A DNA stretch of 64,000 bases from Pedobacter sp. BS3 (lineage in GTDB: Bacteria > Bacteroidota > Bacteroidia > Sphingobacteriales > Sphingobacteriaceae), in the NCBI RefSeq assembly GCF_008274585.1, contig NZ_VTRT01000001.1, positions 1,116,001 to 1,180,000 of the forward strand, given 5' to 3'. Shown piece by piece: positions 16,340-38,186 of this stretch. The number at the start of each line of letters is the position of its first letter. The stretch's first letter is position 1. The notes below the pieces were generated by a model, which was not told the DNA's origin, ran no database searches, and worked only from the letters and a program-made list of their open reading frames with translations. The translations under genes and the position numbers were made by a program.

Positions 16340-17590
16340 CTATGGCTTTCTGCCACGCACCGCAAGTATAACTAAAACGGATGCCAGGAACAGTGACCCC
16401 GACATAAATAAAAACGATTGTCCGACCTGGCCTGTTCCGTGAAGATAACCCACAATATAAGATCCTACAAAAGAGCCTAAAGCGCCAATACTATTTATCA
16501 ACGCAATAGATACTCCCGCTACGTTGCGGGGTAATGTTTCGGCTATCAGGGCAAAGAAAGGTCCAAACGGCGCACATAATGATGCGCCTGCTATGACCAG
16601 CAGCACAAACGACAACCAGAAATTGCTTGCTCCAACCAAATAAGAACCGTAAAAAGCAAGTGAGCTGATTAACAGAAATGCCCAGACAAATGTCTTCCGG
16701 TTTAAGGTTTTATCAGAGAAATACGACACACTAATCATCCCGATAATGGCAAATGCGTAAGCAATGGATGAAAGCCATCCGGTTTCTACAATATCCATAT
16801 CCGGGGCAGCTTTAATTACAGAGGGCAGCCACATCATAAATCCATACGTGCCGATACTCCATAAAGCAAATTGCAGGCTCAGCAATACCACGAATCTCGA
16901 TTTAAAAGCTGTTACATAATTCTTAACCGGTTTGATATGTTCCTGCTCCTGTTGTAACTGGTTTTCTATAACCTGTTTTTCATGGTCTGACAACCATTTT
17001 ACATCCCGGGGTTTGTCGCCAACCTGTTCCCACCAAAAAAAGGCCCAGATCACCGCGGGTACTCCTTCAATGATAAACATCCCTCTCCAGCCCACCGCGT
17101 CAATTAAATATCCCGATAGAATAGACATCCACAGCATCGTTGCCGGATTGCCCAGAATTAAAAACGAATTCGCCTTGGATCGCTCGCTTTTTGTAAACCA
17201 ATTACTCAACAGTATCAGCATACCCGGCATTACCGCACTTTCAACAACTCCAAGCATAAACCGGATAACGATCAGGATGCTGATATTATTCACTATACCT
17301 GTTATGGTTGCTAATACGCCCCATAATACCAGCGACCAGAAAATCAGTTTTTTTGTGCTTTTGGTTGCAGCATAATGCGCCCCGGGAATCTGGAAAAGGA
17401 AATAACCCAGAAAGAACAGCGATCCCAGCAGGGATACCATCGCCGGCGTTATATTCAGATCGTCGGCCATGCCGCCGGCAGCGGCAAATCCAAAATTTGC
17501 ACGGTCAAGGTAAGCGAGACTATACGTTACAAAAACAATAGGCATCAGGCGATACCATCGTTTGCCGGCGGTTATATTTTGACTGGTCAT
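16340..17590 (-). CDS. MFS transporter, anion:cation symporter (ACS)-like
   Basis: This 416-residue protein has 12 predicted membrane helices in two sets of six with a cytoplasmic loop between (about 195-225). The N-terminus RWYRLMPIVFVTYSLAYLDR is the ACS-family signature of sugar-acid and related carriers (glucarate, galactonate, hexuronate). The motif after helix 2 (HYAATKSTKKLIFWS) replaces the general MFS GxxxDRxGRR motif. RFMLGVVESAVMPGMLILLS is typical of ACS helix 4. It is the last gene of the PUL, 94 bases after the GH20 stop. It probably imports a small acidic or neutral product of the locus; the substrate is inference. Confidence 0.88.
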   Translation of the reverse strand: MTSQNITAGKRWYRLMPIVFVTYSLAYLDRANFGFAAAGGMADDLNITPAMVSLLGSLFFLGYFLFQIPGAHYAATKSTKKLIFWSLVLWGVLATITGIVNNISILIVIRFMLGVVESAVMPGMLILLSNWFTKSERSKANSFLILGNPATMLWMSILSGYLIDAVGWRGMFIIEGVPAVIWAFFWWEQVGDKPRDVKWLSDHEKQVIENQLQQEQEHIKPVKNYVTAFKSRFVVLLSLQFALWSIGTYGFMMWLPSVIKAAPDMDIVETGWLSSIAYAFAIIGMISVSYFSDKTLNRKTFVWAFLLISSLAFYGSYLVGASNFWLSFVLLVIAGASLCAPFGPFFALIAETLPRNVAGVSIALINSIGALGSFVGSYIVGYLHGTGQVGQSFLFMSGSLFLASVLVILAVRGRKP

Positions 17591-19332: not shown

Positions 19333-21096
19333 TTATTTTCTTTTAATGCCTGCGTGAAAATTACTGATGGCCTCGGATGTGGTGAGGTAACGGTTGTACA
19401 ATCTGAGGTTCACAAGGGAGCCATGCAGCGCCGGAGCAAGTTTCCATATCGCATTATTACCTATATTTTGCATTTTATCACTGAATCTGCCCCAGCCATG
19501 TATACGGGCCGTTCCTCCGTCGCATAGTTTTCCATCTACAACAACGGTGATAATATCGGGCAGGCCATCTACAATAAAAACTACATGATGTAATTTGCCT
19601 GCAGCGAGGGTTCCGGGATCGGTATCCCAGCCTTCGGTGTGCTTTCCATCACTTAGTTCCAGCCTTAGCGTATGCTGTGGCGTGGTTATTAAACGGACGC
19701 CTTTACCCTGATTATCCCGGTTATCTAATACAATCTGCCCCGGTTCCATATCTTTTAACTCAAGCCAGAGATCAATTGTAAAACCTCCTTCTTGTAGATT
19801 GGGTAAGGTGCCGGCAGCAACAGTGCTGTTCGCTTTAATACCAGCCTGATTATAAATCAGCCCTTTCCGGATAAGTTTTCGTGCGGTTGGCTGATTCCAC
19901 AGACCTTTCAATAAATCAACATCTACCGCATGGACACGGGCTTTGGTTTTCTGGGTTTCGGTTATCCAATACTTGCCGTCTTGTTCTATCAAATCCGGAT
20001 AACTCATACCGGCATAAGTTAAATCATTGCTATACAGTATAATTTCGGGCTGCGACCAGTAGATTTTACCATTTTTCTCTATTCCCCCGCTAATCCAGGC
20101 AGGATTGCGCCCTTTAAAATCTTTACCTCCATGATTATGAAACCAAAACAGATACTTACCATTAGCGCATTTGAATACCCGTGGACAGGCTCTGGGAGTT
20201 TTGATTGTATTACCGAGGCTATATACAGCCCTTTGAGGCAGCGTCCAGGTCTTACCAGCATCCTGGCTATAGGCATCAGCAGGGAATCCCATTGCCGTAC
20301 GATACATACAATAAATATTGCCGTTGCTGAGTGTAACGGTATTGTGTTCTTCCTGGACTGAACCAAAAGCAGGATTACGTAATCCGGCATCTCCCTCAGG
20401 AAGCATTTGCCAGTGAATTTTACCAGGGTCTTTTTCAAAAGCAATATTATCCGACTTAAACAGCCATCCCTCACCGATATCCTGGGGAAATTTCCCTAAT
20501 TTCGTAAATGCGAAATAGATGCTGCTTTTTATTTTATCAGGTTTATCTATTCCCCAGAACATTTGCACTTTACCCTTAAAATCATTGTTAAAGTCCAGGC
20601 TGGTTTTGCGTACCGGCAAGCGGTAACGTTGCGACCATGTCTTTCCATTATCATCTGAGAATTTGTAGCAATACCATCCCAATAATCCCGCCTGCCGAAT
20701 GGGTTTGCCGTTTACTTTTGAAACATTATCTCCATTATAATTGTAAAAAACATATACCCGTCCATAGGACGTTAGGTACGGAATAGCCCAGGACGAAATT
20801 GGCCCAACATTTGGCTCTATAGCAACCACATCTGACCATGTTTTACCATGATCTACGCTTATTGCAGAAACAATATGTTGACCGGGCCGGCTTTCTGATT
20901 CTGCTCCTGTGGTAAACACACACAACCAGCGCCCGTCTTTTAGTACCACCACATAAGGCTGATCGATATATCCGTTATCATAGATAGAATAACCATTTTG
21001 TATGTTTCTTGGATCTGCAGATTGGGCTAGCACCAGCTTACCTGGCATGCTTAATATTACTATAATAGCCCCGATTATATAGAGAATCTTGTTCAT
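19333..21096 (-). CDS. Sialidase-fold (BNR/Asp-box) protein with C-terminal LamG domain
   Basis: This 587-residue protein has a signal peptide ending LVLAQ (about 25). Three Asp boxes (SxDxGxTW) are visible: SVDHGKTW at 80, SDDNGKTW at 147 and SQDAGKTW at 277. They indicate a six-bladed sialidase-type propeller up to about residue 400. Residues about 415-585 form a concanavalin/LamG jelly roll (GGFTIDLWLELKDMEPGQI, KLHHVVFIVDG, LVNLRLYNRYL). The FRIP/YRIP arginine motif of true GH33 sialidases was not found near the N-terminus. The substrate may therefore not be sialic acid, and exo-sialidase should be a fold-level name only. It lies in the PUL between the isomerase (24-base gap) and GH20 (1-base gap). 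Confidence 0.85.
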   Translation of the reverse strand: MNKILYIIGAIIVILSMPGKLVLAQSADPRNIQNGYSIYDNGYIDQPYVVVLKDGRWLCVFTTGAESESRPGQHIVSAISVDHGKTWSDVVAIEPNVGPISSWAIPYLTSYGRVYVFYNYNGDNVSKVNGKPIRQAGLLGWYCYKFSDDNGKTWSQRYRLPVRKTSLDFNNDFKGKVQMFWGIDKPDKIKSSIYFAFTKLGKFPQDIGEGWLFKSDNIAFEKDPGKIHWQMLPEGDAGLRNPAFGSVQEEHNTVTLSNGNIYCMYRTAMGFPADAYSQDAGKTWTLPQRAVYSLGNTIKTPRACPRVFKCANGKYLFWFHNHGGKDFKGRNPAWISGGIEKNGKIYWSQPEIILYSNDLTYAGMSYPDLIEQDGKYWITETQKTKARVHAVDVDLLKGLWNQPTARKLIRKGLIYNQAGIKANSTVAAGTLPNLQEGGFTIDLWLELKDMEPGQIVLDNRDNQGKGVRLITTPQHTLRLELSDGKHTEGWDTDPGTLAAGKLHHVVFIVDGLPDIITVVVDGKLCDGGTARIHGWGRFSDKMQNIGNNAIWKLAPALHGSLVNLRLYNRYLTTSEAISNFHAGIKRK

Positions 21097-21120: not shown

Positions 21121-21840
21121 TTATACCGATGAACACGCCACCGGATATTCATGACACAAATAATATTTCCGGGCTTCATCTTCCTCAATCTCCGGAAAGC
21201 GTTGTGCATAATCTACCAGGAATACGTTATCGCTCCAATCATCACAAACGCTGGATATTTCATTACTGATAGTATAACCAACACCATCTATTTTGTAACC
21301 GGTACCTTCCTCACCCCAAAACTGATGAATGGTGCGGGGCGGAATACATACGCTCATTCCCGGCTTAAGCCTGATGATACTTCCCGGTTCCATTTTGACG
21401 GTACAGCCATCTACCTGTATTGTAAATCGCTCTGTTGAATGCCGGCCTTCTTCATCGGCCTTGGTTACCTGCACCAGAATATTTCCACCAGCCCGGCAAA
21501 TCAAATCTTCACGCTTTGAGAGATGAAAATGGGCCGGTGCACGCTGAATTTCAGGATCGATCAATAGTTTCTCCGCATACTCTTTAGGATATCCCGTTTT
21601 TCCTTTACGCCCATTGCGCAGGGTAAACAGCACTCTTCCTATATTATAAAAATCTTTACTGTTAAAATCGGTAACGTCCCAGCCCAGCATACAATCACGT
21701 ATTTCATTATATTCTTCTCCTGCCCGTTCCCATTGTTCCGGGCTCCAATTGTAAAAATCAGGAAGTTTTACGTTAAAATGTTCAATTACCAGCTTAGCTG
21801 TATCAATACTGTTATTAATGATGGATCTTGTTAAGTGCAT
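21121..21840 (-). CDS. D-lyxose/D-mannose ketol-isomerase-like cupin
   Basis: This 239-residue cytoplasmic protein has no signal peptide. The metal-binding cupin residues are in APAHFHLSKREDL (HxH with a downstream Glu) and IPPRTIHQFWGEEG (third His). The overall pattern, with N-terminal SPEQWERAGEEYNEIRDCML and GWDVTDF, matches the D-lyxose ketol-isomerase family (formerly DUF1498), which interconverts D-lyxose/D-xylulose and D-mannose/D-fructose. It sits between the GH123-like and sialidase-fold genes with 22- and 24-base gaps. An intracellular aldose-ketose step is thus built into the locus; the true substrate may be a related sugar. Confidence 0.85.
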   Translation of the reverse strand: MHLTRSIINNSIDTAKLVIEHFNVKLPDFYNWSPEQWERAGEEYNEIRDCMLGWDVTDFNSKDFYNIGRVLFTLRNGRKGKTGYPKEYAEKLLIDPEIQRAPAHFHLSKREDLICRAGGNILVQVTKADEEGRHSTERFTIQVDGCTVKMEPGSIIRLKPGMSVCIPPRTIHQFWGEEGTGYKIDGVGYTISNEISSVCDDWSDNVFLVDYAQRFPEIEEDEARKYYLCHEYPVACSSV

Positions 21841-21862: not shown

Positions 21863-23704
21863 TCAATAGATAGTGTCTAAATAGTCAAGCATTTCCTTGC
21901 GTACAGCGTTAAACGTTGCAGGTGAATCTTCATAACCTTTTGGAATAGTTTCTGCCCGGGTGAGGTACGTAGAAAAAGGCAAGTCCTGCCCCTGTTCAAT
22001 TTCGGGAAAGACCAACTTTGCTATCAATTCCTGCGCTTTTGATGGATTAGCAGAACGAAGCTTTGCCAGCAAGGTCGCATCAACCATGCCTTCTCTGAAA
22101 CTTATAATCCGCATAGAAGGTATCAGGCCATTTGGAGATCGGTAATACAACCAGGCATCGCCAGGTGGGTGTCCCGGATTTTGCGATCCGTTAGGGAGCG
22201 GCCCCAATGATGTTTGATATTCATCCGGAACTCCCCGGTATTCATTCGCTGCCCAAAATAAATATCCTGAAGCATTATATTTCATACACAGCCATGGCCA
22301 TAACCGATTCTCAATCAGCGGCTGGTCCAGATGACGGTTAGGATAAGGCGGATAGGGACTTGAGGTATTATATAGCCATATACTCTTATGCTGGCTTAAT
22401 CGATCCTTCACCGCATCATTTTTTTGAAGAATAATACCTGGAAGATTAAAAACCTGTATACCAATCATATCGGTAAACAATTCCGGGTGTGAACTATTGG
22501 CATCTATGGACTTAACAGTCGGCATAGTTCGTTTCAGGATATTATTATAATGCTTATATTCATTCAGGGCCGCAGGTGAAGGCTCATCGTATATATGCTG
22601 TACATAACGGTTTAACATCCCCAGCGTTTGAAGATGATTATTTAAATCTTTAAGAAATGTTTGTTGAAAACATTCAAAGTTAATTTGTGTGCTGCCCAAA
22701 CTAATCGTATTTCCAGTTACACTATCTTTAATAGTAAGGCCTGAACCCATTAACTTCATATGCCGGCCGGCAAAATATTTAAAGCCCAGACTGTCAAACA
22801 TGTGTACCCAACGATCGAATCTGGAATAATCAAATGATAATGTCTTTGTCTGGCTATTCCATAATGTTTGTATGAGTGGATGTGCTGTACTAACAAGTGG
22901 CGTAAACATCGTATTCGCTCCATCTTCCCGCAGCATTTTCCCGGCCCGTTCCAGTAAATTCCAGTGTGCTTCGCTCCACCATTCCACCGAAGTACCGCTT
23001 TTGAGATTTTCAGGCAATTCAGAAAGCCAATGTGTGCTATCCAGGAAATAATCTTCTGGCAGTACGGTTTTGTGTACGGTAAACGAAACCGGGATATTTT
23101 TTTCTATTCCTAACGAGCCCGTGATTTTAATATTCCCCTGATAATGCCCAATGGGGCAATCTGTAGGTACCTGTATTTGTAGTAATACGCCTGCAATTTC
23201 TTCAGCAGGTACATTGATAGCAGTTGTTTGTGTGTCTGCTACTGCCTCCAGAACATCAAATGGTGCAAGCCGTACGAGATAAGGTACCCAGGAATCTGGA
23301 AACGCCCCCCCTGGGACATTAATCATTGAACCCTGTGTATTTCCTTCAACATGCACAGGCAACAGTCGTCTAAAAGCAAATCCACCCGTAAAGGATGTAC
23401 CTTCTTCATTTTTTACGCTGTCAAGCACTATTGTGAATTGCTGCGTGCTCGAACCCGTGATGGCCAATTGCATGCCTAAAGTATAGTTTCGCGGAATATT
23501 AACAGACTGATACCCTGGTTCTGTAACAGGAAAATTATCAGAATAAATACGGGCATACAGGTCTAATAGTTTACATTGAAAATCATTTCCCGTATTAGCT
23601 TCCTTCTTTATAGGGAAAGCTTTATATAATTCTTCCGCCTCTGCAGATATTGTATAAGCAGACAGCAAAGCCAATAAGGCTATCATTCTTCTTATGCCAT
23701 TCAT
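21863..23704 (-). CDS. GH123/DUF4091-like glycoside hydrolase
   Basis: This is a 613-residue secreted protein with a signal peptide ending about residue 23 (SAEAEE region). An N-terminal beta-sandwich (about 30-210, with VLLQIQVPTDCPIGHYQGNI) precedes a TIM-barrel-like catalytic domain. The adjacent Asp-Glu in YVQHIYDEPSPAALNEY (D373, E374) matches the catalytic pair of GH123 beta-N-acetylgalactosaminidases, where the Asp orients the acetamido group and the Glu is the acid/base. Aromatic pocket blocks follow (LWPWLCMKYNASGYLFWAAN). DUF4091 proteins are a related, mostly uncharacterised group, so GalNAc specificity is inference. Gaps to its neighbours are 22 bases on each side. Confidence 0.8.
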   Translation of the reverse strand: MNGIRRMIALLALLSAYTISAEAEELYKAFPIKKEANTGNDFQCKLLDLYARIYSDNFPVTEPGYQSVNIPRNYTLGMQLAITGSSTQQFTIVLDSVKNEEGTSFTGGFAFRRLLPVHVEGNTQGSMINVPGGAFPDSWVPYLVRLAPFDVLEAVADTQTTAINVPAEEIAGVLLQIQVPTDCPIGHYQGNIKITGSLGIEKNIPVSFTVHKTVLPEDYFLDSTHWLSELPENLKSGTSVEWWSEAHWNLLERAGKMLREDGANTMFTPLVSTAHPLIQTLWNSQTKTLSFDYSRFDRWVHMFDSLGFKYFAGRHMKLMGSGLTIKDSVTGNTISLGSTQINFECFQQTFLKDLNNHLQTLGMLNRYVQHIYDEPSPAALNEYKHYNNILKRTMPTVKSIDANSSHPELFTDMIGIQVFNLPGIILQKNDAVKDRLSQHKSIWLYNTSSPYPPYPNRHLDQPLIENRLWPWLCMKYNASGYLFWAANEYRGVPDEYQTSLGPLPNGSQNPGHPPGDAWLYYRSPNGLIPSMRIISFREGMVDATLLAKLRSANPSKAQELIAKLVFPEIEQGQDLPFSTYLTRAETIPKGYEDSPATFNAVRKEMLDYLDTIY

Positions 23705-23726: not shown

Positions 23727-25502
23727 TTACTTACCTAAAATTTTTCGTAATACGGGCTCTATCACCTCACAATAGCGAAACATGCCTAAATCAGTAGGAT
23801 GAGACCCATCAACAGTTGCTTCATTATCATAGCCAATCAGCCCTTCTCCCGGTATATATGACACAGCCTTCACATTTTCTTTCAGGAGTTGTTCATAGGC
23901 TTTTTTCAATCCTGCCCGGCGATTATTTGGCACTGCCGCTCCCGTAAAATTTGCATAGGCATACGTTCGGTCTTCGACAAGTATTATCGGTGTTTCGGGG
24001 CGTTTAGCCCGAAGTTTTCTTACAAGAAAAAGTGTTCGGTCTACAATTTCATCAGAACTCATCTTTCCCATATTGGGCAGACAGTCTATAATATAAGCTG
24101 ATGCAGAGATTTCTGCCAGTATATCAGCAAATTCCGGATCCATAGTACCATTGCCTGAAAATCCCAGATTGATAGTTGGCATATCCAGCCTTCTACCCAA
24201 CATAGAAGGATATGCCATGCCGGGTCTTGAGGCGCTACATCCCTGCAATATTGAAGTGCCATAAAAAACCAGGGGCTTTCCGCGATCATGAGGCTTTTCT
24301 ATTTTAACATCTGGCGAAAAACCCAACTGTATATCAGTTAAAGCACTATATAATGGCAAATAGAGGATATATTCATATTTACCTGTTTCGGGAATTCCGT
24401 TTTTTAAACTTGCCTCATTATCAACATCACTCCGTGTCGGTTTCCCAACACCAGCCCACTGCCATTTCCCGTTTAATTTAACATACAAATCGAGCCCATT
24501 AACACCAAGAGGAGTCATGTGGGGAAGAAACGGATTACTCTTCAATTTCCATTTCGCAGTAATAAATTTTGTATTGGAAGCGGTAAAATGCAGAGCAATA
24601 CCCGCCGAATGTGTGCTTAATGCCCATACCGGATTTCTCACCACAGATTTAAAACGGGCTGGCAATCTGTTATATGGTGTTTCTGTATCTTTCCATCCTT
24701 TACCTTCAATATTTAATTCAGTAGCGTTTATCCATTTTACAGTTAGATCTACAGGCTTTCCTGTTCTCATTTCTGCATCCAGGTTTTCTATACGTGTTTC
24801 TGTGGATGATGTCGTTGATGCCTGCGGAACACCTGTAAATTTAAAATTCTGCAGTTTTCCTATCCATAATAAAGATTTACTACTGTTACCTGCCTGACAG
24901 CCTATTTCAAACAGTCTTTTTGAGTTTTCTCCTAAATCACCTATCCCAGCAACAGAATATTTGTGTTTCCGATCTATTACAAGTGTAATGGTTCCTTTTC
25001 CACCATCGGGGCTCCATTCCAAAGAAAAGAAATGAATTTTTCCATCGTTAAAGCTACGGCCCGAAGACATTAATGAAACCCCTTTCTTATCGTTATTAAC
25101 GGCCATTACTCTTAATGTCCCATCTTTTAACATTAAAAAATCCCAGCCTGTATAACCTGATAGAGCAGAGCGAGTGCCGGCTATAACCGCTATATTTCCG
25201 TCCTCGTTTGTTGTCTGGAAGTTTCCTTCAAACACCCAAGGAAGGTTACGCATATCCAACGATGGCAAATACGAGCTGCTAAAACCCGACCATGTTCCTT
25301 TTTCAACAGATGCCTGCTTATTTAGATTATAAGTTCCTGTGTTATCCTTTATGAATGTAGATTTATCATTTACGTCCAAAGGCCAATGTGCCATAAGTTT
25401 ACTGCCCGCCTGATAAGAAGCTAACGCATTGAATGTTAAGATCCATCCTAAAAGCAGCAACAATAGCTTAGTATAGTGTCTCTTATTTATTATTTTTCTC
25501 AT
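23727..25502 (-). CDS. SGNH/GDSL-type esterase with N-terminal LamG-like module
   Basis: This 591-residue protein has a signal peptide (LLLLLLGWILTFNALAS). Residues about 33-225 are a LamG-like jelly roll (KLMAHWPLD, GTWSGFSSSYLPSLDMRN, TGWDFLMLKDGTLRV). Residues about 250-400 match an SGNH_hydro_N-type beta domain with the GLDLYVKL mark. The catalytic domain has block I FYGTSILQGCS (nucleophile S417), block II GFSGNGTM, and block V DGSHPTDLG (D565, H568). The enzyme probably removes acetyl or other acyl groups from the target glycan at the cell surface or in the periplasm. Its LamG module closely resembles the one inserted in the neighbouring SusD. Confidence 0.88.
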   Translation of the reverse strand: MRKIINKRHYTKLLLLLLGWILTFNALASYQAGSKLMAHWPLDVNDKSTFIKDNTGTYNLNKQASVEKGTWSGFSSSYLPSLDMRNLPWVFEGNFQTTNEDGNIAVIAGTRSALSGYTGWDFLMLKDGTLRVMAVNNDKKGVSLMSSGRSFNDGKIHFFSLEWSPDGGKGTITLVIDRKHKYSVAGIGDLGENSKRLFEIGCQAGNSSKSLLWIGKLQNFKFTGVPQASTTSSTETRIENLDAEMRTGKPVDLTVKWINATELNIEGKGWKDTETPYNRLPARFKSVVRNPVWALSTHSAGIALHFTASNTKFITAKWKLKSNPFLPHMTPLGVNGLDLYVKLNGKWQWAGVGKPTRSDVDNEASLKNGIPETGKYEYILYLPLYSALTDIQLGFSPDVKIEKPHDRGKPLVFYGTSILQGCSASRPGMAYPSMLGRRLDMPTINLGFSGNGTMDPEFADILAEISASAYIIDCLPNMGKMSSDEIVDRTLFLVRKLRAKRPETPIILVEDRTYAYANFTGAAVPNNRRAGLKKAYEQLLKENVKAVSYIPGEGLIGYDNEATVDGSHPTDLGMFRYCEVIEPVLRKILGK

Positions 25503-27729: not shown

Positions 27730-30700
27730 TTATAAAATGGCTTTTAAACTAAATACAATTGTTTTCGCCCTGGGATATGCAGAAAAGTCAAATCCCGGAG
27801 TCAGAATGGAATTTTTCACTGCCACTTCAGGATCCATACCTGTATAATTAGTCCAGGTAAATAAGTTCTGAGCAGAACATCCTAAAGAAAGCTTGCTTAC
27901 TTTTACCCGTTTTAAATATTTGGAAGGTATATCATAATCCAGTGATACTGTTTTTAGCCGTAAATAAGACCCATCTTCTAATGTCATGGACGAATACACT
28001 CCATTTGGTCCTGCTCCTGAATCTGCACCGCCTAAACCTGCTCTAAACATATTGGTATTTTGATTCTCAGGAGTCCAACGGTTATTATAAGATGCAAACT
28101 GATTCATCAGAGGCCTTATATTATAACCTCCTTCAAAATATATTCTATTTGCATTCATAATATCGTTACCATACGACCATTGGAAAAAGATATTGAGCTT
28201 AAAATTTTTGTAAGCAAAATTGTTGTTGAAACCTCCGGTATGAATAGGGAACGCTCTTCCTATAACCGTTCTGTCTTCACTATTAACTATACCGTCATTA
28301 TTCAAATCTCGGTATTTTATATCTCCCGGTTTTATAGAAGCCCGCGGATCTCCATTGGTAGGTACTTCATCTTTAAGTTCATATACTCCGGGCGAAGTTT
28401 CATTGAAATCGCTGTATTGATATACACCATCCCATATAACTCCCCAGAATGACGCTGCAGGCCCTCCTACTTCAGTTCTATATAATGGCGTTCCACTATA
28501 GTTACTGTCCCATGACATGTAGTTGAGCATAAAGGGTTCATTATCATTCAGGGCAAGTACCTTATTCCTGTTAAAACTTATATTGAAACTGCTCTCCCAA
28601 CTAAACGTTCTTCCTTTTACATTTTTAGTGTTCAATGAAATTTCCAATCCTTCATTTTTAAGAGAGCCGACATTTTTAAAGGCTGTAGAAAAGCCCGACA
28701 CTAATGGCAAATTAGCTCGTAACAGTAAATCGCGTACCGTTCTTCTATATATATCTGCCGTCAGGTTAATACGATTTTTAAACATAGAAAGGTCATAACC
28801 AATATTTACCTGTTCAGAGGTTTCCCATTTAAGAGATTCGTTTCCCAAAGTATTGGCTATGGCTCCTCTAGACGGGGTTTGGTTATTAAACGAGTAATAA
28901 TAAGTGTACGGCAGTTCAATGGAGGATAAATAGTCATAATCTCCAACCCTGTTATTACCCGATAGCCCATAACCAATTCTTAATTTTGCATCAGTTATAA
29001 ATTTAACCTGCTTCATAAAATCCTCATCACTCATTCTCCATGCAATTGCTCCGGAAGGGAAATATCCCCATCTGTTACCTGATGGGAATCTGGAAGAACC
29101 ATCAGCCCGATAAGAAGCTGTCAGCAAATATTTAGATTTGAATTTATAGTCAACTCTTCCGAAAAAAGACATTTGCTTTGAATCACTTATAATACTCCTA
29201 TTGGTTACAGGAACTCCCTGATCAAGGCCACTCAGCCCCAACTCCTCATTTGGCACATTTTGGGAACCAAAAGCATAATAACTTGTATTGATACCTTCCA
29301 GGCTGAAGCCTCCCTTAACATCCAGATGATGGTTACCAAAGGCCTTTGCATAAGAGAGAATATTTTCATTAGAGAAAAGCTTATATTGATAGAAATTTGC
29401 TCCACCTTGTACTCCAGCGTACACTACTCCGGGGCGCATAATCCCTCTTCTGGTTTTAGAATTATAGAAATAATTATATTCTCTTAGCCTTTTGTCTGCC
29501 CGGCCATTTACGGTCAGTAATAAGTTTCCGGTAATTTTATATTTGAGAGACAGATTTCCGGTAATTATCGAATTTTTTGTATGCAGATTCTCATTTTCTG
29601 CCATAATTACGGGATTTATCCTGTAGTCACTCGCGGCATTAAGTGTGGGATCTGTCAACTGTGTTTCCAAATCATATAAAGATTCATTAGGGCCTGTAAC
29701 AGGCCTGTATCCCCATATACTTGAAAAGAAAGAGCTGGTTGCTGTACCACTTAATGCATCATCTGCGGCTACGAGCCCTGATGCATGGTTATCCGTATAA
29801 TATAAGCTTAAACCAGTTGATAGTTTTTTATTAATGGTTTGTTCTAATGCAATACGACCATTAAATCTATTGAATGCTGTATTGATGATGGTACCATTCT
29901 GATTATAATAGGAACCTGACACAAGATATTTGGTGCCACCTGTTCCACCACTTACAGAAAGGTTATGTATTTGAACTGTGCCCAGACGAAATACTTTATC
30001 CTGCCAGTCTATAGATTCTGCATTTCTGTATACTTCAGGATCAGGTGTCTCTCCTGCCTGAAGATCAGGATAATAAACTGCCTTCGCATCAGCAGGGAAA
30101 CGCTCTAATTGTAATTTGACAAACTCATATCCATCCATCATCTCCATTCTATTTGTCACCTTATTAAATCCCTGACTACCATTATAAGTAATCCTTGCCT
30201 TCCCTACTTTCCCTTTCTTGGTCTCTATCAGTATTACTCCGTTAGACCCGCGAGCTCCATAAATTGCAGTTGATGAAGCGTCTTTCAAAACGCTTATTGA
30301 TTCCACATTGTCCGGACTTATAGTGGTAGGGTCAAAATTTTCCATCGGAAAACCATCTACTACATACAGCGGATCTGTACTCTGCGTCAACGACCCTACC
30401 CCTCTTATGGTAATATTAGGAGCAGAACCTGGCTGCCCATCATTTGAAGCCACCTGCACACCAGCAACTCTACCCGCCAAGGCATCGGCAAAGGTAGCAA
30501 CAGGAGCTTTTTCCATATCTTCCACACTCACCTGGCCAACAGCGCCTGTTAAATCTCCCTTTCTAACTGTGCCGTATCCTATCACTACTACTTCGTTAAG
30601 TCTTTTGTCTGCGACTTCCAACACTATATTAAGCTGCGCTTGCGAACCTATGGATACTATCCTTGTTGTGTATCCAATATAACTGAACTCTAATTGTCCA

Positions 30701-30909
30701 CTACCCTGAGGGACTCTGATAGCGTATTTCCCATCGCCATTTGTCTGGGTTTTTACAGATGTACCTTTCACCGTTACGTTTACTCCCACTAAAGGTTCAT
30801 TCCCATCTCTTGAGCTTACTAAACCTGTAATTGTTCTATCCTGTGCGTATGACAAAACTGTCAATAAGGAAAAGTACAATAGCAGGCACCATCGAATTGA
30901 TTTAGCCAT
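27730..30909 (-). CDS. SusC/RagA-family TonB-linked outer-membrane receptor
   Basis: This 1059-residue receptor has a signal peptide ending about residue 22 (LLTVLSYAQ). A CarboxypepD_reg-like domain follows (TITGLVSSRDGNEPLVGVNV, then YTTRIVSIGS). Next are the SusC linker LNEVVVIGYGTVRKGDLTGA and the plug (GVQVASNDGQPGSAPNITIR, DPLYVVDGFPM, SVLKDASSTAIYGARGSNGV). A 22-strand barrel completes the protein and ends KTIVFSLKAIL. With SusD it forms the bedbin-type TonB-dependent importer for oligosaccharides. The upstream gene ends 43 bases before the start, so the NHL gene is in the same operon. Confidence 0.97.
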   Translation of the reverse strand: MAKSIRWCLLLYFSLLTVLSYAQDRTITGLVSSRDGNEPLVGVNVTVKGTSVKTQTNGDGKYAIRVPQGSGQLEFSYIGYTTRIVSIGSQAQLNIVLEVADKRLNEVVVIGYGTVRKGDLTGAVGQVSVEDMEKAPVATFADALAGRVAGVQVASNDGQPGSAPNITIRGVGSLTQSTDPLYVVDGFPMENFDPTTISPDNVESISVLKDASSTAIYGARGSNGVILIETKKGKVGKARITYNGSQGFNKVTNRMEMMDGYEFVKLQLERFPADAKAVYYPDLQAGETPDPEVYRNAESIDWQDKVFRLGTVQIHNLSVSGGTGGTKYLVSGSYYNQNGTIINTAFNRFNGRIALEQTINKKLSTGLSLYYTDNHASGLVAADDALSGTATSSFFSSIWGYRPVTGPNESLYDLETQLTDPTLNAASDYRINPVIMAENENLHTKNSIITGNLSLKYKITGNLLLTVNGRADKRLREYNYFYNSKTRRGIMRPGVVYAGVQGGANFYQYKLFSNENILSYAKAFGNHHLDVKGGFSLEGINTSYYAFGSQNVPNEELGLSGLDQGVPVTNRSIISDSKQMSFFGRVDYKFKSKYLLTASYRADGSSRFPSGNRWGYFPSGAIAWRMSDEDFMKQVKFITDAKLRIGYGLSGNNRVGDYDYLSSIELPYTYYYSFNNQTPSRGAIANTLGNESLKWETSEQVNIGYDLSMFKNRINLTADIYRRTVRDLLLRANLPLVSGFSTAFKNVGSLKNEGLEISLNTKNVKGRTFSWESSFNISFNRNKVLALNDNEPFMLNYMSWDSNYSGTPLYRTEVGGPAASFWGVIWDGVYQYSDFNETSPGVYELKDEVPTNGDPRASIKPGDIKYRDLNNDGIVNSEDRTVIGRAFPIHTGGFNNNFAYKNFKLNIFFQWSYGNDIMNANRIYFEGGYNIRPLMNQFASYNNRWTPENQNTNMFRAGLGGADSGAGPNGVYSSMTLEDGSYLRLKTVSLDYDIPSKYLKRVKVSKLSLGCSAQNLFTWTNYTGMDPEVAVKNSILTPGFDFSAYPRAKTIVFSLKAIL

Positions 30910-30952: not shown

Positions 30953-32791
30953 TTATTCTATCACTATTTTTTTAGTGCTTATACCGTCTACTTCTAACAG
31001 ATAAATTCCTGCAGGTAATTTTTTAGAAATATTTACAGATATCTCATTATCTATCACTTCCAGCTCTTTCTGAAATACTGCTTTACCATTCAAGTCAATT
31101 ATTTTCACCAGTTTTAGTTTATCAATCGTATTTATTCCCGATATTGTAAACTTCTCTGCACTTACAGGATTAGGAAAAACTTTCCAGCTGTTAAAATCAG
31201 TTAAACCCACATTAACAGACTTCAATCCCAATTCCTTGTATACACCATCTTTATCTGTCTGCACAAGTTTGTAATAATTGATACCCGGGTTTGGATCTGA
31301 ATCTGTATAAATATAGTTACCTCCCTCATTTCCTTTAGAATCTATTCTGGTATATATTTTAAAGTCCTTTCCATCTGTACTCCTTAGTATATTGAAATGG
31401 CTGTTATTAGTCTCCGACGAAGTTTTCCATATTAATTCTACACTTCCGTTAGTTAACAAACTAACCGAGTAATCAACCAAAGACACCGGTAAAGCCGCTT
31501 CTACTGTAATATTGATTGTTGCGGTACTACTGCCTGATGTATTATATGCGGTAACGGTATAATCTGTGGCTGGAGAAATCTCTGTTGGTGTTCCGCTGAT
31601 TATACCTGTTGTAGCATCAAAACTTAAACCTGCTGGTAGCTGTGGGCTTATTGTATATCCTGTTGTGCTTATTTTTCTAATCCTATCATTAGTATAATCA
31701 GCAACATATAGGTTTCCTGAGGCATCTATCGCCACATCTGCTGGATTTTTAAAACTTGCCTCTGTGCCTATACCATCTGCTAAAGCTCCTGTCCCGCTTC
31801 CGGCTAAAGTAGTTACTATACCAGAAGGACTCATTTTTCGTATTTTATGATTATTATAATCTGCTATGTACAGATTTCCCGCATTATCAAAAGTTAATCC
31901 AAAAGGTCCATTAAAACTTGCATCTGTATCAATAGGACCATCATTAGAACCACCACAAGGACAGATATTTAATGTTTCCACCTGAGCTGTTGTGGCATTA
32001 ATTTTTCGTATCCTGTTATTACCATTATCACTTACATAAATATCTCCTGTACTGCTCACAGCAATACCGACAGGATTATTAAATCTTGCATCAGTTCCTA
32101 TGCCATCCAAAGCACCAGATTGATTTGAACCAACAGGCGCACCAGCAAAAGTTACCACATCTCCAGTTGGTGAAACTTTACGTATCTTATGCCTTGCTCT
32201 GTCTGCTACATACATATTGCCCGAGGCATCAAATGCCATCCCAAAAGGTAAGTAGAATTCAGCGGAAACGGCATCACCATCTGCATCCCTATTACCTGCT
32301 GCACTACCAGCCCCGGAAAAATGAGTTTGCACTCCTGCCGAAGTAATTTTACGTATAATATTACCTTGGTCTGATGCATATATATTTCCCGATGCATCCA
32401 CCGCCACTCCTAAAGGATTATTAAATTTTCCATCTGCCAATACACCAGAAGAACTGGTAACACCTGCAAGAGTACTTACAACACCTTCTGGAGTTATTTT
32501 TGTTATTCTATGGTAAGCCCTATCAGCAACATAGACATTCCCAGAGGCATCTACTGCTATACCTTGGGGTCTGGAAACACCTCCTGCTGCCCCAGCAACA
32601 GTAATGGTACTTACCTGTCCATAAATTGTAGCAGGTACAGCTCCTCCTGTATTAACAGGGTTTAAAGGAGAAATTGCCGTGTTTTGTGTAAACACATTTG
32701 ATACATTGTAGCTAATAACCGGAGCCTGAGCCAATGTGATGCTTGTACCAGAAAACATCAAAAAAACGCTTAATAGTAGTTTTCTTTTCAT
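30953..32791 (-). CDS. Secreted NHL six-bladed propeller protein with T9SS sorting domain
   Basis: This 612-residue protein has a signal peptide ending SITLAQ (21). Six NHL repeats of the form GxAxDxSGNxYVADxxxxRIxKI make one propeller (about 60-375); examples are GIAVDASGNVYVADRAYHRI and DVAIDASGNLYVADYTNDRI. A putative-Ig domain follows (GLSFDATTGIISGTPTE, TDYTVTAYNTSGSS). Next come a fibronectin-like segment (about 432-530) and a type A T9SS sorting domain (WKVFPNPVSAEKF, ending STKKIVIE). It should be exported by type IX secretion and held at the surface. It is a paralogue of the last block of the larger neighbour. With SusC 43 bases downstream, it leads the SusCD genes. Its function is unknown. 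Confidence 0.9.
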   Translation of the reverse strand: MKRKLLLSVFLMFSGTSITLAQAPVISYNVSNVFTQNTAISPLNPVNTGGAVPATIYGQVSTITVAGAAGGVSRPQGIAVDASGNVYVADRAYHRITKITPEGVVSTLAGVTSSSGVLADGKFNNPLGVAVDASGNIYASDQGNIIRKITSAGVQTHFSGAGSAAGNRDADGDAVSAEFYLPFGMAFDASGNMYVADRARHKIRKVSPTGDVVTFAGAPVGSNQSGALDGIGTDARFNNPVGIAVSSTGDIYVSDNGNNRIRKINATTAQVETLNICPCGGSNDGPIDTDASFNGPFGLTFDNAGNLYIADYNNHKIRKMSPSGIVTTLAGSGTGALADGIGTEASFKNPADVAIDASGNLYVADYTNDRIRKISTTGYTISPQLPAGLSFDATTGIISGTPTEISPATDYTVTAYNTSGSSTATINITVEAALPVSLVDYSVSLLTNGSVELIWKTSSETNNSHFNILRSTDGKDFKIYTRIDSKGNEGGNYIYTDSDPNPGINYYKLVQTDKDGVYKELGLKSVNVGLTDFNSWKVFPNPVSAEKFTISGINTIDKLKLVKIIDLNGKAVFQKELEVIDNEISVNISKKLPAGIYLLEVDGISTKKIVIE

Positions 32792-32877
32792 ATTACTTTA
32801 ATTACGAGTTAACAAATTGATTGACAGAAACTTGCTTCAAAAGCATTATCCTTTACTCAAAGATGCATCGAAATTTA

Positions 32878-32923
32878 CTGCTCAACTCATACGAAATTGC
32901 CCAATATCAATGCTATTCTATCT
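32878..32923 (-). promoter_or_regulatory. Duplicated upstream element, copy 2 (before the 612-residue NHL gene)
   Basis: This segment shares the core CATACGAAATTGCCCAA and flanking CTGCT...TCAAC and CTATTCTATCT-like parts with 37174-37221. It lies 87-132 bases upstream of the NHL start on the minus strand; the other copy lies 68-115 bases upstream of the paralogue's start. Similar position before two paralogous genes suggests a shared control site, perhaps for the AraC regulator encoded at 37317; the regulator link is inference. Confidence 0.5.
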
Positions 32924-33020
32924 TTATATAAATTACAAAAACAGATTTGAAACAGAATAGTATTTACCATGAAGTAAGAGAGCTTGAAATTTGAGCCTGT
33001 CTCCAAAAGCAATACTATCA

Positions 33021-36000
33021 TTAACGTATGAATATCTTTTTTACCCCCAATTCCTGTACCTGCACCATATACATGCCTGGCATTAATCGGGATGGAAGAT
33101 ATATATTAGCTTGCCCGTCATTTACGGTCAAGCCTTTGCTGAACACTATTCGTCCGGTCATATCATAAATTTTCACAATCTTTTCCTTTGAGGCAGCAAT
33201 TGGCACAACTATTCTAAACCATCTGTTATCAACAGGATTGGGGTAAATGCTCCAATCTGCTTTTATTAAATTTTCAGGGTTAATTTCTACTCTCATATTT
33301 TCATTACCAGTAGGCCGAGAAGCTAATAGCAAGTCATCTGATACTTCGATACTAATGGTATCAGAGCTGCTACCTGCACTATTATATGCTGTAACAACAT
33401 AATCTGTAGCTGGCGATACTACGGTAGGTGTACCACTAATAACACCTGTTTTGTTATCAAATGTTAACCCAGTTGGCAGTGACGGATTGATAGTGTAACC
33501 AGTGGTTACAATTTTCCTAATCCTATCATTAAGATAATCTGCTACATACAGGTTTCCATCTGCATCCGCTGCCACATCCGCCGGATTTTTAAAACTCGCA
33601 GCAGTGCCTATTCCATCTGTTAACGCTCCGGTCCCACTACCGGCAAGTGTACTTACAGTTCCAGTCGGTGCTATCTTACGAATTTTATTATTAGTATAAT
33701 CAGCTATATAGAGGTTACCAGCACCATCAAATGCCATTCCGAAAGGGCCATTAAAGCTTGCAGTCGCTACCGAGCCATCAGCCGATCCGGCACTCCCTGT
33801 CCCTGCAAATGTTGTTACTTCACCTGTCGAGGTAATTTTCCGGATTTTATTGTTATTAAAATCCCCAATATAAAAATCCCCTGCCTGACTGATTGCGATT
33901 CCTACCGGGTTATTAAACTTGGCACTTGTTCCTGTGCCATCAATAGACCCTGCCGTACTACCAGCGAAAGTACTTACGGTACCAGATACGGTTACTTTAC
34001 GAATTCTATGATTTGCACGATCCGCAACATACAGGTTTCCTGTTGAGTCCAGGGATAATCCAAATGGGTAATAGAAACTAGCTGATGTGCCTGCACCGTC
34101 AGATGATCCTACTGAACCGTCTCCGGCAAGTGTACTTACCTGCCCCGCCGGACTAATTTTCCGGATACGCTCATTCTGAATATCAGAAACATAAACATTA
34201 CCAGCACTATCTATAGCAATATCAGACGGATTATTAAACATGGCTGTGGCACTTGAACCATCTGCAAACCCTGCGGTTCCGCTGCCTGCAAGAGTACTTA
34301 TAGTTTCTTGCGGAGTAATTTTCCTAATCCTGTGATATGCCCGATCAGCGATGTATACATTACCAGATTTATCAATTGCAATACCTTGCGGCCTTGAAAC
34401 ATCTCCGCTGATAGTTATTGTACTTGTTTCACCATAAGTGGTAGCTGGAACAGGGCCACCAGTGTTTACAGGAGCTATAGGCGTAATGATTTGATTTTTA
34501 ATATAATTCTGCACATCCGGATAAGCTATGTGTGGCGGGGTATTTATAATTTCTATATTTAGAGTATCCGAACTATTACCAGCCTGATTATAAGCCGTAA
34601 TAATATAATTTGTAGCGGGCGATACGGCCGAAGGCGTTCCGCTAATTACTCCTGTTGCGGCATTGAGAGACAACCCTCCCGGTAATTCAGGATTAATAGT
34701 GTAACCTGTGATAGTAATTTTTCGAATTTTATTGTTACCGTCCGCTACATATAAGTTTCCTATGTTATCTGTTATTACATCAACCGGATACTTAAAACTA
34801 GCGGCACTGCCTATACCTTCTGCCAAGCCGATTGTGCCACTTCCCGCAAGAGTACTTACTATACCAGAAGGAGTGATTTTTCGGATTTTTTGATTATTAT
34901 AATCTGCCACGTACACATTTCCCAGATTATCCACCGTTACACCAAACGGATTAGTGAAACTGGCAGCTCCGCCAATACCATCAGCAGAACCAGGGCTGGT
35001 TTGACCTGCTAAAGTACTGACTACGCCTGCTGCAGTAATTTTCCGAATCCGGTTATTCGTGTAGTCACCAACATATATGTTGCCAGCACTGTCAACCGCA
35101 ACTCCTACCGGATTGTTAAATTTTGCAGTTAGCGGATTACTTGAATCTGCAAACCCCGCAGTGCTCCCTGCTATTGTAGTCACTACTCCCACCGGAGTAA
35201 TTTTCCGTATCTTATAGTTATAACGATCGGCGACATATACATCTCCTGACCGGTCGACAGCAAGACCAAAAGGATAATTAAATTTTGCGGCACTACCCGT
35301 ACCATCAGCAAAACCTGCAGTTCCAACAGTACCGGCCAGCGTGCTGACAACCCCTGCCGGGGTGATTTTTCTTATTGTATGATTCCGCATGTCAGAAATA
35401 TACAAGGTACCGGAACTATCAATTACAATTCCGGCCGGTTCATTAAAACTGGCACCCGTTCCTGTACCATCTGCCGAACCAGCTACACCGCTACCTGCAA
35501 ATGTGCTAACTACACCTGCAGGGGTGATTTTTCGTATTCTATGATTATAACGATCGGCCACATAAATATTTCCTGTATTGTCTGCAACCATTCCATAAGG
35601 TGTCTTGAATTTTGCTGTTGTACCTACACCATCCGCAAAGCCATAACTTCCACTGCCTGCAAATGTGCTGGTTTCACCATAGGCAACTACAGATGGCACA
35701 CTACCACCATTATTCACGGGAATAAGTAATGGAATTTCTTTATTTTTCACATAAATCTGCCCTGCCCCATAATTAATATCAGGAGATAAGTTATCTATTA
35801 CTTGAATACTTACAGTATCAGAACTATTCCCTGTTCTGTTATATGCCGTAATGATATAATCTGTTATGGGTGCTACTGCTGTTGGCGTACCACTGATTAT
35901 ACCTGCGGTAGCATCAAAATTTAACCCGGCTGGTAATGACGGCCTAATGGTAAAACCAACTGTTGATATTTTTCGGATAACGTTTCCGGTAAATTCGGCT

Positions 36001-37106
36001 ACATAGAGATTACCAGTTCTGTCAACAGCAATTCCAAAAGGATTATTGAAACTAGCCGAATCTCTTACACCATCCATAGAACCGCTACAGGCACAACCGG
36101 CCAGCGTACTTACCATCCCAGCGGAAATTTTCCGGATTTTTTGATTCCCATAATCGCTCACATATATATTTCCTATACTATCAACAGCCACACCAACCGG
36201 ATTATTAAAACTTGCTACCGTATCAATGCCATCGATTGAATTCGCGGCACCACTACCCGCTACAGTACTTACTAAGCCTCCGGGAGTAATCTTTCGTATT
36301 CTATGATTGGCTCGATCAGCTACATACAGATTTCCGGTTCTGTCAACAGCAATCCCAAAGGGATAATTAAACTTTGCCGCACTGCCTGTACCATTTGCAA
36401 AACCTGCTGTACCAACACTACCGGCAAGTGTACTTACTACTGCAGCGGGAGTAATTTTCCGAATTGTTTGATTCTGTAAATCAGAAACATACAGGTTTCC
36501 GGCAATATCGATGGCAATTCCACCAAGTTCACTGAAACTGGCTGATGTACCTGTACCATCTGCAGAGCCCACAGCACCACTGCCGGCAAATGTACTGACT
36601 ACACCTGCCGGGGTAATCTTCCGTATCTTATGATTATAACGATCAGCTACATAAATGTTGCCTGAAGTATCTACAGCCACCCCGTAAGGATTATAAAAGC
36701 TTGCCGATGCCCCTGTACCATCTGCAGAGCCCACAACACCACTACCTGCCAATGTACTGACTACACCTGCCGGGGTAATCTTTCGTATTTTATTATTCGC
36801 TCTGTCAGCTATATACAGATTACCTGAAACATCAACTGCCACTCCCACCGGCGAATTAAAAGTGGCTGCTATCCCCGTGCCGTCAGTCGAGCCGGCAATG
36901 CCACTGCCAGCAAATGTGCTTACCTCACCATATACAATAGCTGGAATTTCTCCACCAGTATTAATTGGTTCCAAGGGGACAATCGTTTTGTTTTTTATGT
37001 AAACCTGAGATTTGTTATATATTATATATGGTTCTTGCGAATAAAGTTGCTCATGGCACAATAACACAATAGCCGCCAACCAACTTATTAGTAAATACCT
37101 TTTCAT
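33021..37106 (-). CDS. Secreted triple NHL-propeller protein with T9SS sorting domain
   Basis: From the ATG at 37104-37106 the protein is 1361 residues. This start is preferred over one 26 codons upstream because it gives a clean signal peptide, MKRYLLISWLAAIVLL. Three similar blocks follow. Each has an opening strand with PVNTGG or a variant, six NHL repeats (18 in all, such as GVAVDVSGNLYIADRANNKI), and a putative-Ig domain (GLNFDATAGIISGTPTA and variants). The end is a T9SS sorting domain (DWSIYPNPVDNRWF, MPGMYMVQVQELG). It thus carries three six-bladed propellers on the cell surface or released. It is the first gene of the PUL strand, divergent from the AraC gene. Block 3 is closest to the 612-residue paralogue. 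Confidence 0.9.
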   Translation of the reverse strand: MKRYLLISWLAAIVLLCHEQLYSQEPYIIYNKSQVYIKNKTIVPLEPINTGGEIPAIVYGEVSTFAGSGIAGSTDGTGIAATFNSPVGVAVDVSGNLYIADRANNKIRKITPAGVVSTLAGSGVVGSADGTGASASFYNPYGVAVDTSGNIYVADRYNHKIRKITPAGVVSTFAGSGAVGSADGTGTSASFSELGGIAIDIAGNLYVSDLQNQTIRKITPAAVVSTLAGSVGTAGFANGTGSAAKFNYPFGIAVDRTGNLYVADRANHRIRKITPGGLVSTVAGSGAANSIDGIDTVASFNNPVGVAVDSIGNIYVSDYGNQKIRKISAGMVSTLAGCACSGSMDGVRDSASFNNPFGIAVDRTGNLYVAEFTGNVIRKISTVGFTIRPSLPAGLNFDATAGIISGTPTAVAPITDYIITAYNRTGNSSDTVSIQVIDNLSPDINYGAGQIYVKNKEIPLLIPVNNGGSVPSVVAYGETSTFAGSGSYGFADGVGTTAKFKTPYGMVADNTGNIYVADRYNHRIRKITPAGVVSTFAGSGVAGSADGTGTGASFNEPAGIVIDSSGTLYISDMRNHTIRKITPAGVVSTLAGTVGTAGFADGTGSAAKFNYPFGLAVDRSGDVYVADRYNYKIRKITPVGVVTTIAGSTAGFADSSNPLTAKFNNPVGVAVDSAGNIYVGDYTNNRIRKITAAGVVSTLAGQTSPGSADGIGGAASFTNPFGVTVDNLGNVYVADYNNQKIRKITPSGIVSTLAGSGTIGLAEGIGSAASFKYPVDVITDNIGNLYVADGNNKIRKITITGYTINPELPGGLSLNAATGVISGTPSAVSPATNYIITAYNQAGNSSDTLNIEIINTPPHIAYPDVQNYIKNQIITPIAPVNTGGPVPATTYGETSTITISGDVSRPQGIAIDKSGNVYIADRAYHRIRKITPQETISTLAGSGTAGFADGSSATAMFNNPSDIAIDSAGNVYVSDIQNERIRKISPAGQVSTLAGDGSVGSSDGAGTSASFYYPFGLSLDSTGNLYVADRANHRIRKVTVSGTVSTFAGSTAGSIDGTGTSAKFNNPVGIAISQAGDFYIGDFNNNKIRKITSTGEVTTFAGTGSAGSADGSVATASFNGPFGMAFDGAGNLYIADYTNNKIRKIAPTGTVSTLAGSGTGALTDGIGTAASFKNPADVAADADGNLYVADYLNDRIRKIVTTGYTINPSLPTGLTFDNKTGVISGTPTVVSPATDYVVTAYNSAGSSSDTISIEVSDDLLLASRPTGNENMRVEINPENLIKADWSIYPNPVDNRWFRIVVPIAASKEKIVKIYDMTGRIVFSKGLTVNDGQANIYLPSRLMPGMYMVQVQELGVKKIFIR

Positions 37107-37173
37107 ATTATGCGTTAGTTTGTAAATGGTTAGTATTAAATAATCGAATAGCAATTCAAAATTGCCCCGAATT

Positions 37174-37221
37174 CTGCTACTCAACCCATACGAAATTGCC
37201 CAACACTGATGCTTTTCTATC
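37174..37221 (-). promoter_or_regulatory. Duplicated upstream element, copy 1 (before the large NHL gene)
   Basis: This is the counterpart of 32878-32923, sharing the core CATACGAAATTGCCCAA. It lies in the 210-base divergent spacer between the NHL gene and the AraC regulator, so it could serve both directions. No convincing TTTG/TAnnTTTG promoter pair was found next to it. Confidence 0.5.
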
Positions 37222-37316
37222 TAAAACCAGGATTCACCTATAAAAATTCAACAAAATAGCATTCAATACCTAAAAAGAATCCTATATTTAGGTTACGACT
37301 CTTAACTCCGTCAACT

Positions 37317-38186
37317 ATGAAACCAGTTTTAATGCGTCATGTAGAAGCGTACAGCGAATCATTTAAATCATGGAAAAATGAGAAACCTTACCGCCATAAT
37401 CCCTGGCATTATCACCCGGAATGTGAGATAACCTTTATCATTAAAGGCAGCGGTATCCTGTTTATTGGCGACCGGGTTTTAAATTATTCGGAAAATGAGC
37501 TGGTATTGATCGGCCCGAATCTGCCGCATGAATGGCGGAGCAACATCAAAGAGGATCCTGACAACTATTCACAATCAATAGCCGTTCATTTTAAGCCCGG
37601 TTCATTGGGAAATGATTTTTACAAAATTCCCGAAATGCAACCCATTAACTTGCTATTAGAGCAATCTGTCAGGGGAATTGCTATCCAAAGCAATCCTGTT
37701 AAAGAAACGGTGAAGAATAAACTTATCCAGTTAATTGAAACTCAGGGAGTAGAACGCATTAGCCTCCTGTTATCTATATTGAGCAGCATTACCCGTACCG
37801 ACAAAATAAGCTTTCTATCCAGCACCAGCTTTGTGGATTCCATTCAAAACGACCATGATCACCGGATTAATAAAGTATATAAGTATGTGATGACCAATTT
37901 CAAAAATCAGCTATCGATAGATCAGATTGCTGCAGAGATCTCCATGACACCTACTTCTTTTTGTCGTTTCTTTAGAAAAAGGATCAATAAATCGTTCGTA
38001 CAGTATGTCAATGAAATACGCATAGGTTATGCCTGTAAGCTGCTATACGAAGACAAATTCAGCATTTCACAGGTGGCTTTTGAATCCGGATTTGACAACT
38101 TGTCTAATTTTAACAAGCAATTTAAAAAGATCAAACAGGTTACCCCCAGTCAGTTTATTTTACAGATCTCAAAAAAAAGCGATTAA
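37317..38186 (+). CDS. AraC-family transcriptional regulator (PUL regulator candidate)
   Basis: This 289-residue protein has an N-terminal cupin sensor domain (WHYHPECEITFIIKGSGILF, then NLPHEWRSN) and a C-terminal pair of helix-turn-helix motifs. HTH1 is QLSIDQIAAEISMTPTSFCR; HTH2 contains SISQVAFESGFDNLSNFNKQ and ends FKKIKQVTPSQFI, the AraC hallmark. It is transcribed divergently from the PUL, with a 210-base spacer holding the duplicated element. It probably senses a sugar released by the locus and switches on its promoter. Hybrid two-component or sigma/anti-sigma regulators are more usual for PULs; none is present here. Confidence 0.93.
   Translation: MKPVLMRHVEAYSESFKSWKNEKPYRHNPWHYHPECEITFIIKGSGILFIGDRVLNYSENELVLIGPNLPHEWRSNIKEDPDNYSQSIAVHFKPGSLGNDFYKIPEMQPINLLLEQSVRGIAIQSNPVKETVKNKLIQLIETQGVERISLLLSILSSITRTDKISFLSSTSFVDSIQNDHDHRINKVYKYVMTNFKNQLSIDQIAAEISMTPTSFCRFFRKRINKSFVQYVNEIRIGYACKLLYEDKFSISQVAFESGFDNLSNFNKQFKKIKQVTPSQFILQISKKSD

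Follow-up and report, generated by a model that had tools for sequence, protein, structure and literature searches.

Two genes of Pedobacter sp. BS3 encode NHL-repeat proteins with T9SS sorting tails and stand directly ahead of a SusC/SusD pair, which raises the question of whether their products take part in glycan uptake by the neighbouring PUL or serve the cell surface in some other way. An initial annotation of this DNA regarded them as possible glycan-binding or scaffold parts of the locus, or even as a new class of SusCD accessory. The window, that is, the whole stretch of 64,000 nucleotides analysed here, covers positions 1,116,001 to 1,180,000 of contig NZ_VTRT01000001.1, and in it the two proteins are laid out as follows:

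33021..37106, minus strand: 1361-residue NHL/He_PIG protein with a T9SS type-A tail, ATG start
35787..37034, minus strand: block 1 of the 1361-residue protein; Ig N-half (residues 25-60), six NHL blades, Ig C-half (residues 384-440)
34536..35786, minus strand: block 2 of the same protein; Ig N-half (441-476), six blades, Ig C-half (801-857)
33330..34538, minus strand: block 3 of the same protein; Ig N-half (857-892), six blades, Ig C-half (1203-1259)
33027..33248, minus strand: T9SS type-A sorting tail of the 1361-residue protein, TIGR04183 39.5 bits (cut-off 23)
30953..32791, minus strand: 612-residue NHL/He_PIG protein with a T9SS type-A tail
32618..32725, minus strand: Ig-like domain, N-half (residues 23-58), of the 612-residue protein
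31661..32617, minus strand: six-bladed NHL propeller nested in the Ig-like domain of the 612-residue protein
31490..31660, minus strand: Ig-like domain, C-half (residues 378-434), of the 612-residue protein, He_PIG profile positions 31-95 of 96
31202..31489, minus strand: extra domain of ~95 residues before the tail of the 612-residue protein, from the alignment
30959..31180, minus strand: T9SS type-A sorting tail of the 612-residue protein, TIGR04183 35.2 bits (cut-off 23)

A mechanical call had started the longer frame at a TTG (37184), which is not credible and falls within the upstream element described below.

The 612-residue protein carries 6 NHL blades and the 1361-residue protein 18, in three groups of six, with Pfam NHL scores of 138.5 and 374.2 bits, respectively (cut-off 20), together with one and three He_PIG stretches. 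The three blocks of six repeats recognised in the long protein by the initial annotation are indeed there, whereas the Ig-like domain, taken at the time as an addition to the six repeats, is split around the propeller: its N-half precedes blade 1, its C-half follows blade 6, and the propeller lies between them. Pfam He_PIG matches just positions 31-95 of its 96, 3′ of blade 6, and the missing first part of the profile (Y....V....I.PL.PVNTGG.VPA..YG) stands ahead of blade 1. As had been proposed, the single block of the 612-residue protein is closest to block 3 of the long one (62% amino acid identity, versus 55% for block 2 and 54% for block 1), and the VSRPQG and SFKNPADVA segments are common to both proteins in the alignment. 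On the other hand, the segment of ~95 residues preceding the tail (about 435-530) is found in the 612-residue protein and is missing from the 1361-residue one; this extra domain looks like the beta-sandwich often seen in T9SS cargo.

Each propeller thus seems to sit as an insertion within an Ig-like domain, as judged from alignments and from a predicted model. Half-domain HMMs, built from the blocks of the window and iterated on the fetched loci, yielded 107 C-halves, 94 of which have an N-half upstream across 3-6 blades (exactly six blades in 69 cases), the others being contiguous with it (3), devoid of an N-half (9) or preceded by a gap without blades (1). When the halves of the 612-residue block were joined in silico and used as a query for uninterrupted domains, natural contiguous domains, matched end to end, were found in four places:

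G110:C1:1208075-1208335: natural uninterrupted Ig domain, query 1-90, 60%
G063:C9:2768: natural uninterrupted Ig domain, query 4-92, 57%
G051:C1:526062: natural uninterrupted Ig domain, query 7-90, 43%
G046:C7:581: natural uninterrupted Ig domain, query 4-93, 52%

Pfam coverage of the joined halves grew to positions 2-95 in 2 of 3 joins, with a gain of 1-2 bits, and showed no gain in the third, a test that is weak by itself because the bit gains are small and a control with a shuffled N-half still reached 8-95 of He_PIG. In any case, the two halves, once joined, would make up a complete He_PIG Ig-like domain. A shallow AlphaFold model, based on four window sequences, puts the two Ig halves and the greater part of the propeller at a pLDDT of about 80-92, with values <50 in loops and in the stretch leading up to the tail, and Foldseek aligns the model with designed six-bladed propellers at target TM-scores of 0.87-0.91. 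Both the blade counts (6 and 3x6) and this match of the predicted fold are those of a propeller closed by six NHL blades. The same fold and repeat are present in the PknD sensor (1RWI), TRIM71, the designed Pizza6 and the NHL propeller of teneurin, with TMt values to the predicted model of about 0.8-0.9 for PknD, Pizza6 and TRIM71 (Foldseek); the uncharacterized 3HRP, found by sequence, also has an NHL propeller like those described here. The propellers of this locus differ from all of these in being nested in an Ig-like domain, exported through the T9SS, according to their tails, and tripled in one protein. Both the nested module and its repeated control element are new to us: a literature search limited to open-licence papers found no description of either, and nothing relevant on NHL together with SusC, SusD, PULs or the T9SS.

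The T9SS signals reported earlier on both proteins were recovered, with Por_Secre_tail and TIGR04183 over their cut-offs (Pfam, NCBIfam). Their signal peptides would probably be cut before a Gln (between TLA and QAPV in the 612-residue protein, between LYS and QEPY in the 1361-residue one), in agreement with the Bacteroidetes Q-rule, by which Gln follows the signal peptide (PMC5837995), and no lipobox is evident in either protein upon sequence inspection. Judging by their sorting domain, both would be T9SS type-A cargo with a predicted location at the surface. Many further T9SS tails occur elsewhere in the genome, and one frame of 1640 residues matches a PorU-like sortase in two parts, which score 196 and 81.7 bits, both under the cut-off of 420 bits.

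The genes that follow on the same strand, a SusC/SusD pair with carbohydrate enzymes, form a PUL, which is flanked by a divergent regulator:

27730..30909, minus strand: SusC-type TonB-dependent transporter, 43 bases downstream of the 612-residue gene, TIGR04056 907.8 bits
25549..27711, minus strand: SusD with a C-terminal LamG region
23727..25502, minus strand: LamG + GxDLY + GDSL/SGNH esterase
21863..23704, minus strand: GH123 catalytic-domain protein
21121..21840, minus strand: D-lyxose isomerase family protein (Pfam; under the NCBIfam equivalog cut-off)
19333..21096, minus strand: BNR (sialidase-like) + LamG protein
17685..19331, minus strand: GH20 hexosaminidase-family protein
16340..17590, minus strand: MFS transporter
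37317..38186, plus strand: AraC-family regulator, divergently oriented, that may bind the 67-bp elements

The spacing of 43 bases between the 612-residue gene and SusC is the one given by the initial annotation. The enzymes of the locus would fit a host-type or amino-sugar glycan as the substrate. Domain sharing inside the locus is seen between SusD and the neighbouring SGNH esterase, since the LamG region of the former (residues 425-630) shows 41% identity over 208 residues to the LamG of the latter (residues 36-235). The PUL looks lineage-specific and was perhaps acquired, because no close GH123 homologue (E <= 1e-60) was found in the other 398 family genomes searched, no NHL match was listed beside the closest SusD homologues (at most 56%), and the GC content, 44-48% over the initial 20 kb of the window, is 38-43% from SusD to AraC. 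Just past the AraC regulator, beside this lower-GC region, lies a PD-(D/E)XK transposase-family gene (38635-39588).

The NHL genes are tied to this PUL by their regulatory DNA, in the form of a 67-bp element that precedes each of them:

37156..37222, minus strand: copy 1 of the 67-bp element (P1), before the 1361-residue gene; core TTGGGCAATTTCGTATGGGTTGAGTAG, contains TTG-N17-CAATTTTG
32857..32923, minus strand: copy 2 of the 67-bp element (P2), before the 612-residue gene; core TTGGGCAATTTCGTATGAGTTGAGCAG, contains TTG-N17-CATCTTTG

P1 and P2 are identical at 53 of 67 positions (score of 36.2, versus a maximum of 14.6 among 200 shuffles) and show two differences in the 27-bp core, with 0 copies expected by chance in the window and no third copy, at <=2 mismatches, in the 4.8 Mb genome. 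Coding DNA aligned between the two NHL blocks is 62% identical, and the far better conservation of the element suggests that this stretch was kept by selection or copied later than the genes; for all that difference, it could be a residue of the NHL gene duplication. Bacteroidota promoters follow the pattern TTG...TAnnTTTG, and the downstream end of both copies reads TTG-N17-CAnnTTTG, one mismatch away from it; TAnnTTTG was not over-represented in a scan, which returned no exact instance ahead of either NHL gene, and the CAnnTTTG boxes of P1 and P2 are to be read as one-mismatch candidates. The 22-base core of the element was not found to be conserved in relatives, where 8 of 301 genomes match it, mostly with 3 mismatches and barely above a control pattern. 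The 43-base gap before SusC shows no terminator-like site on the minus strand, and those of the plus strand within the NHL coding region were disregarded as repeat-derived. This arrangement is consistent with two promoters that share a common operator, P1 driving the 1361-residue gene, and P2 the 612-residue gene, SusC and the rest, with the divergent AraC protein as the natural candidate regulator of both elements. That the genome has this element ahead of the two NHL genes alone speaks for SusC and both of these genes being controlled together.

Whether such an association recurs was followed in NHL genes sampled from the family and the phylum via propeller similarity and full-block similarity, with neighbourhoods of up to 20 kb each around about 130 places. 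Propeller-only and block queries were used, since the full 612-residue protein pulls in unrelated T9SS tails; a scan of genome contigs with that protein gave 16 distant matches only, with no SusC neighbours. Matches to the nested block occur in 82 of 399 family genomes, at about 40-53% identity. A same-strand SusC was found within 5.5 kb of 1 out of 37 nested-Ig T9SS genes (HMM counts of one to five nested blocks), lying in that single case upstream of the NHL gene, whereas the proportion rises to 17 out of 60 for small NHL genes (<=720 residues, devoid of nested Ig and often with a lipobox), with SusC upstream in 13 of the 17 (Fisher p = 0.001, although genes of one genome are not independent). 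The earlier statement that surface NHL propellers are not standard partners of SusCD was therefore too strong, the small proteins next to SusCD including those of two other loci of this genome. These two further SusC loci hold three other NHL genes, so that 3 out of 3 NHL loci are SusC loci, for which the chance would be about 5e-4, if independent, given that, counted by strand, about 8% of genome positions lie no more than 5.5 kb from one of the 56 SusC genes.

One of these loci (L009:9531-16830, C1 about 1.017-1.025 Mb) is a SusC-SusD operon with an NAGPA phosphodiester glycosidase, a TIG+NHL lipoprotein, an NAGPA+NHL fusion (644 residues) and a type I phosphodiesterase-family protein. The other (L010:9346-18288, C12 about 0.388 Mb), with NAGPA, an anti-sigma-like gene, SusC, SusD and DUF5689+NHL in a row, pairs NHL with NAGPA for a second time in this genome. 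Giant NHL/Ig proteins were also met: one, in an ORF of 3459 residues (L143), has 54 blades, and nested blocks occur in two open frames that run to 6983 and 6163 residues (G483:C1 about 2.85 Mb and G417:C36 about 0.178 Mb). A contig filed as Bifidobacterium breve (L022:3295-6815) carries He_PIG-type Ig repeats like those of these Bacteroidota, probably through an assembly binning error.

With 36 out of 37 relatives of the same architecture away from SusC, the general job of the nested module is not glycan uptake. Homologues lying mostly away from SusCD, the outcome named beforehand as evidence against the initial proposal, are precisely what was found among relatives with the nested architecture, and a general SusC-leading class of NHL/T9SS accessories is not supported by this sample. 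What stands of that proposal is the link of this particular pair to this PUL through its regulatory DNA. The locations of the relatives favour the main rival reading, in which the Ig-nested NHL proteins are a general surface adhesin or scaffold (spacers), as they probably are elsewhere in the family, and have no more in common with the PUL than promoter and position; they might, for instance, attach cells to a glycan-bearing particle instead of feeding SusC. The extreme length of some relatives, with as many as 54 blades in a single protein or with such blocks in frames of 6000-7000 residues, also suits spacers, but the shared upstream element and the close spacing to SusC would not be expected, and we regard this reading as possible, though somewhat doubtful.

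The two conserved copies of the element and the 43 bases without a terminator weigh as well against the idea that the pair came to lie next to the PUL by chance after an insertion, with no functional link. Such a coincidence would accommodate the absence of the pair, to the extent that the reported positions show it, from the surroundings of the closest SusD homologues, together with a PUL GC content below that of its flanks and a transposase-family gene nearby, and yet seems unlikely. Even less probable is that the propellers are an enzyme, a lyase or hydrolase of the Vgb/SMP-30 kind acting on the substrate: the weak Pfam matches to Vgb_lyase, SGL and PhoX that could suggest it ride on the NHL-like repeats, with Vgb_lyase at 44.0 in the single-block protein, below the cut-off of 50, and NCBIfam Vgb scores of 19-25 versus a cut-off of 600.

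The reading preferred here is that a widespread T9SS surface module has been recruited, apparently in this lineage only, as a co-regulated accessory, probably for ligand capture, of an amino-sugar PUL, a proposal that, resting on sequence comparisons, could prove wrong as easily as right. The nearest mechanistic precedent would be BtuG, a surface propeller that captures its ligand and caps a TonB-dependent transporter, and which resembles the NHL pair in being encoded with such a transporter (PMC10404256). BtuG is, however, a seven-bladed lipoprotein that binds B12 and acts as the lid of BtuB, whereas here SusD already supplies the lid. The TIG/NHL, DUF5689/NHL and NAGPA/NHL proteins encoded next to SusCD, in this genome and in relatives, bring the same six-bladed propeller into SusCD loci, but they are small, often lipoproteins, usually downstream of SusD and without Ig-nested blocks. 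Conversely, the large He_PIG/NHL proteins of the family, of T9SS or gliding type, have the same nested block, but away from SusC. The surface glycan-binding lipoproteins SusE and SusF would share with the NHL pair the proposed surface capture for SusCD, and yet the pair is not of the SusE/SusF type, a surface lipoprotein encoded downstream of SusD, since it lies upstream of SusC, carries T9SS tails and shows neither a lipobox nor, in the Pfam scan, a SusE/F domain.

Starting from the architecture, the tails, the duplicated element and the 43-base spacing as read from the DNA, this recruitment would have added two T9SS-exported proteins, with one and three nested modules, upstream of the amino-sugar PUL in this lineage. 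The AraC regulator would bind P1 and P2, so that the long NHL gene, from P1, and the 612-residue gene with SusC, SusD and the remaining genes, from P2, would be induced together. Once exported through the T9SS, the propellers would sit at the outer surface, carried on Ig stalks, and may hold glycan or glycoprotein substrates near the SusCD transporter and the enzymes, where three propellers in one protein could provide avidity or reach. In this way, the NHL pair would fill the role of a surface glycan-binding protein while being unrelated to SusE/F. A bolder version, in which a portable and so far unrecognised T9SS surface module, strung together in one to many copies, can be drafted into a SusCD system under the operator of the PUL and then serves instead of the usual lipid-anchored glycan-binding protein, can be held only tentatively, but, if true, it would link two surface-delivery routes of Bacteroidota, lipoprotein SusCD and the T9SS, in one regulated uptake locus. 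Beyond this locus, the nested domain-within-domain module is widespread, roughly one in five of the family genomes sampled yielding a match to it.
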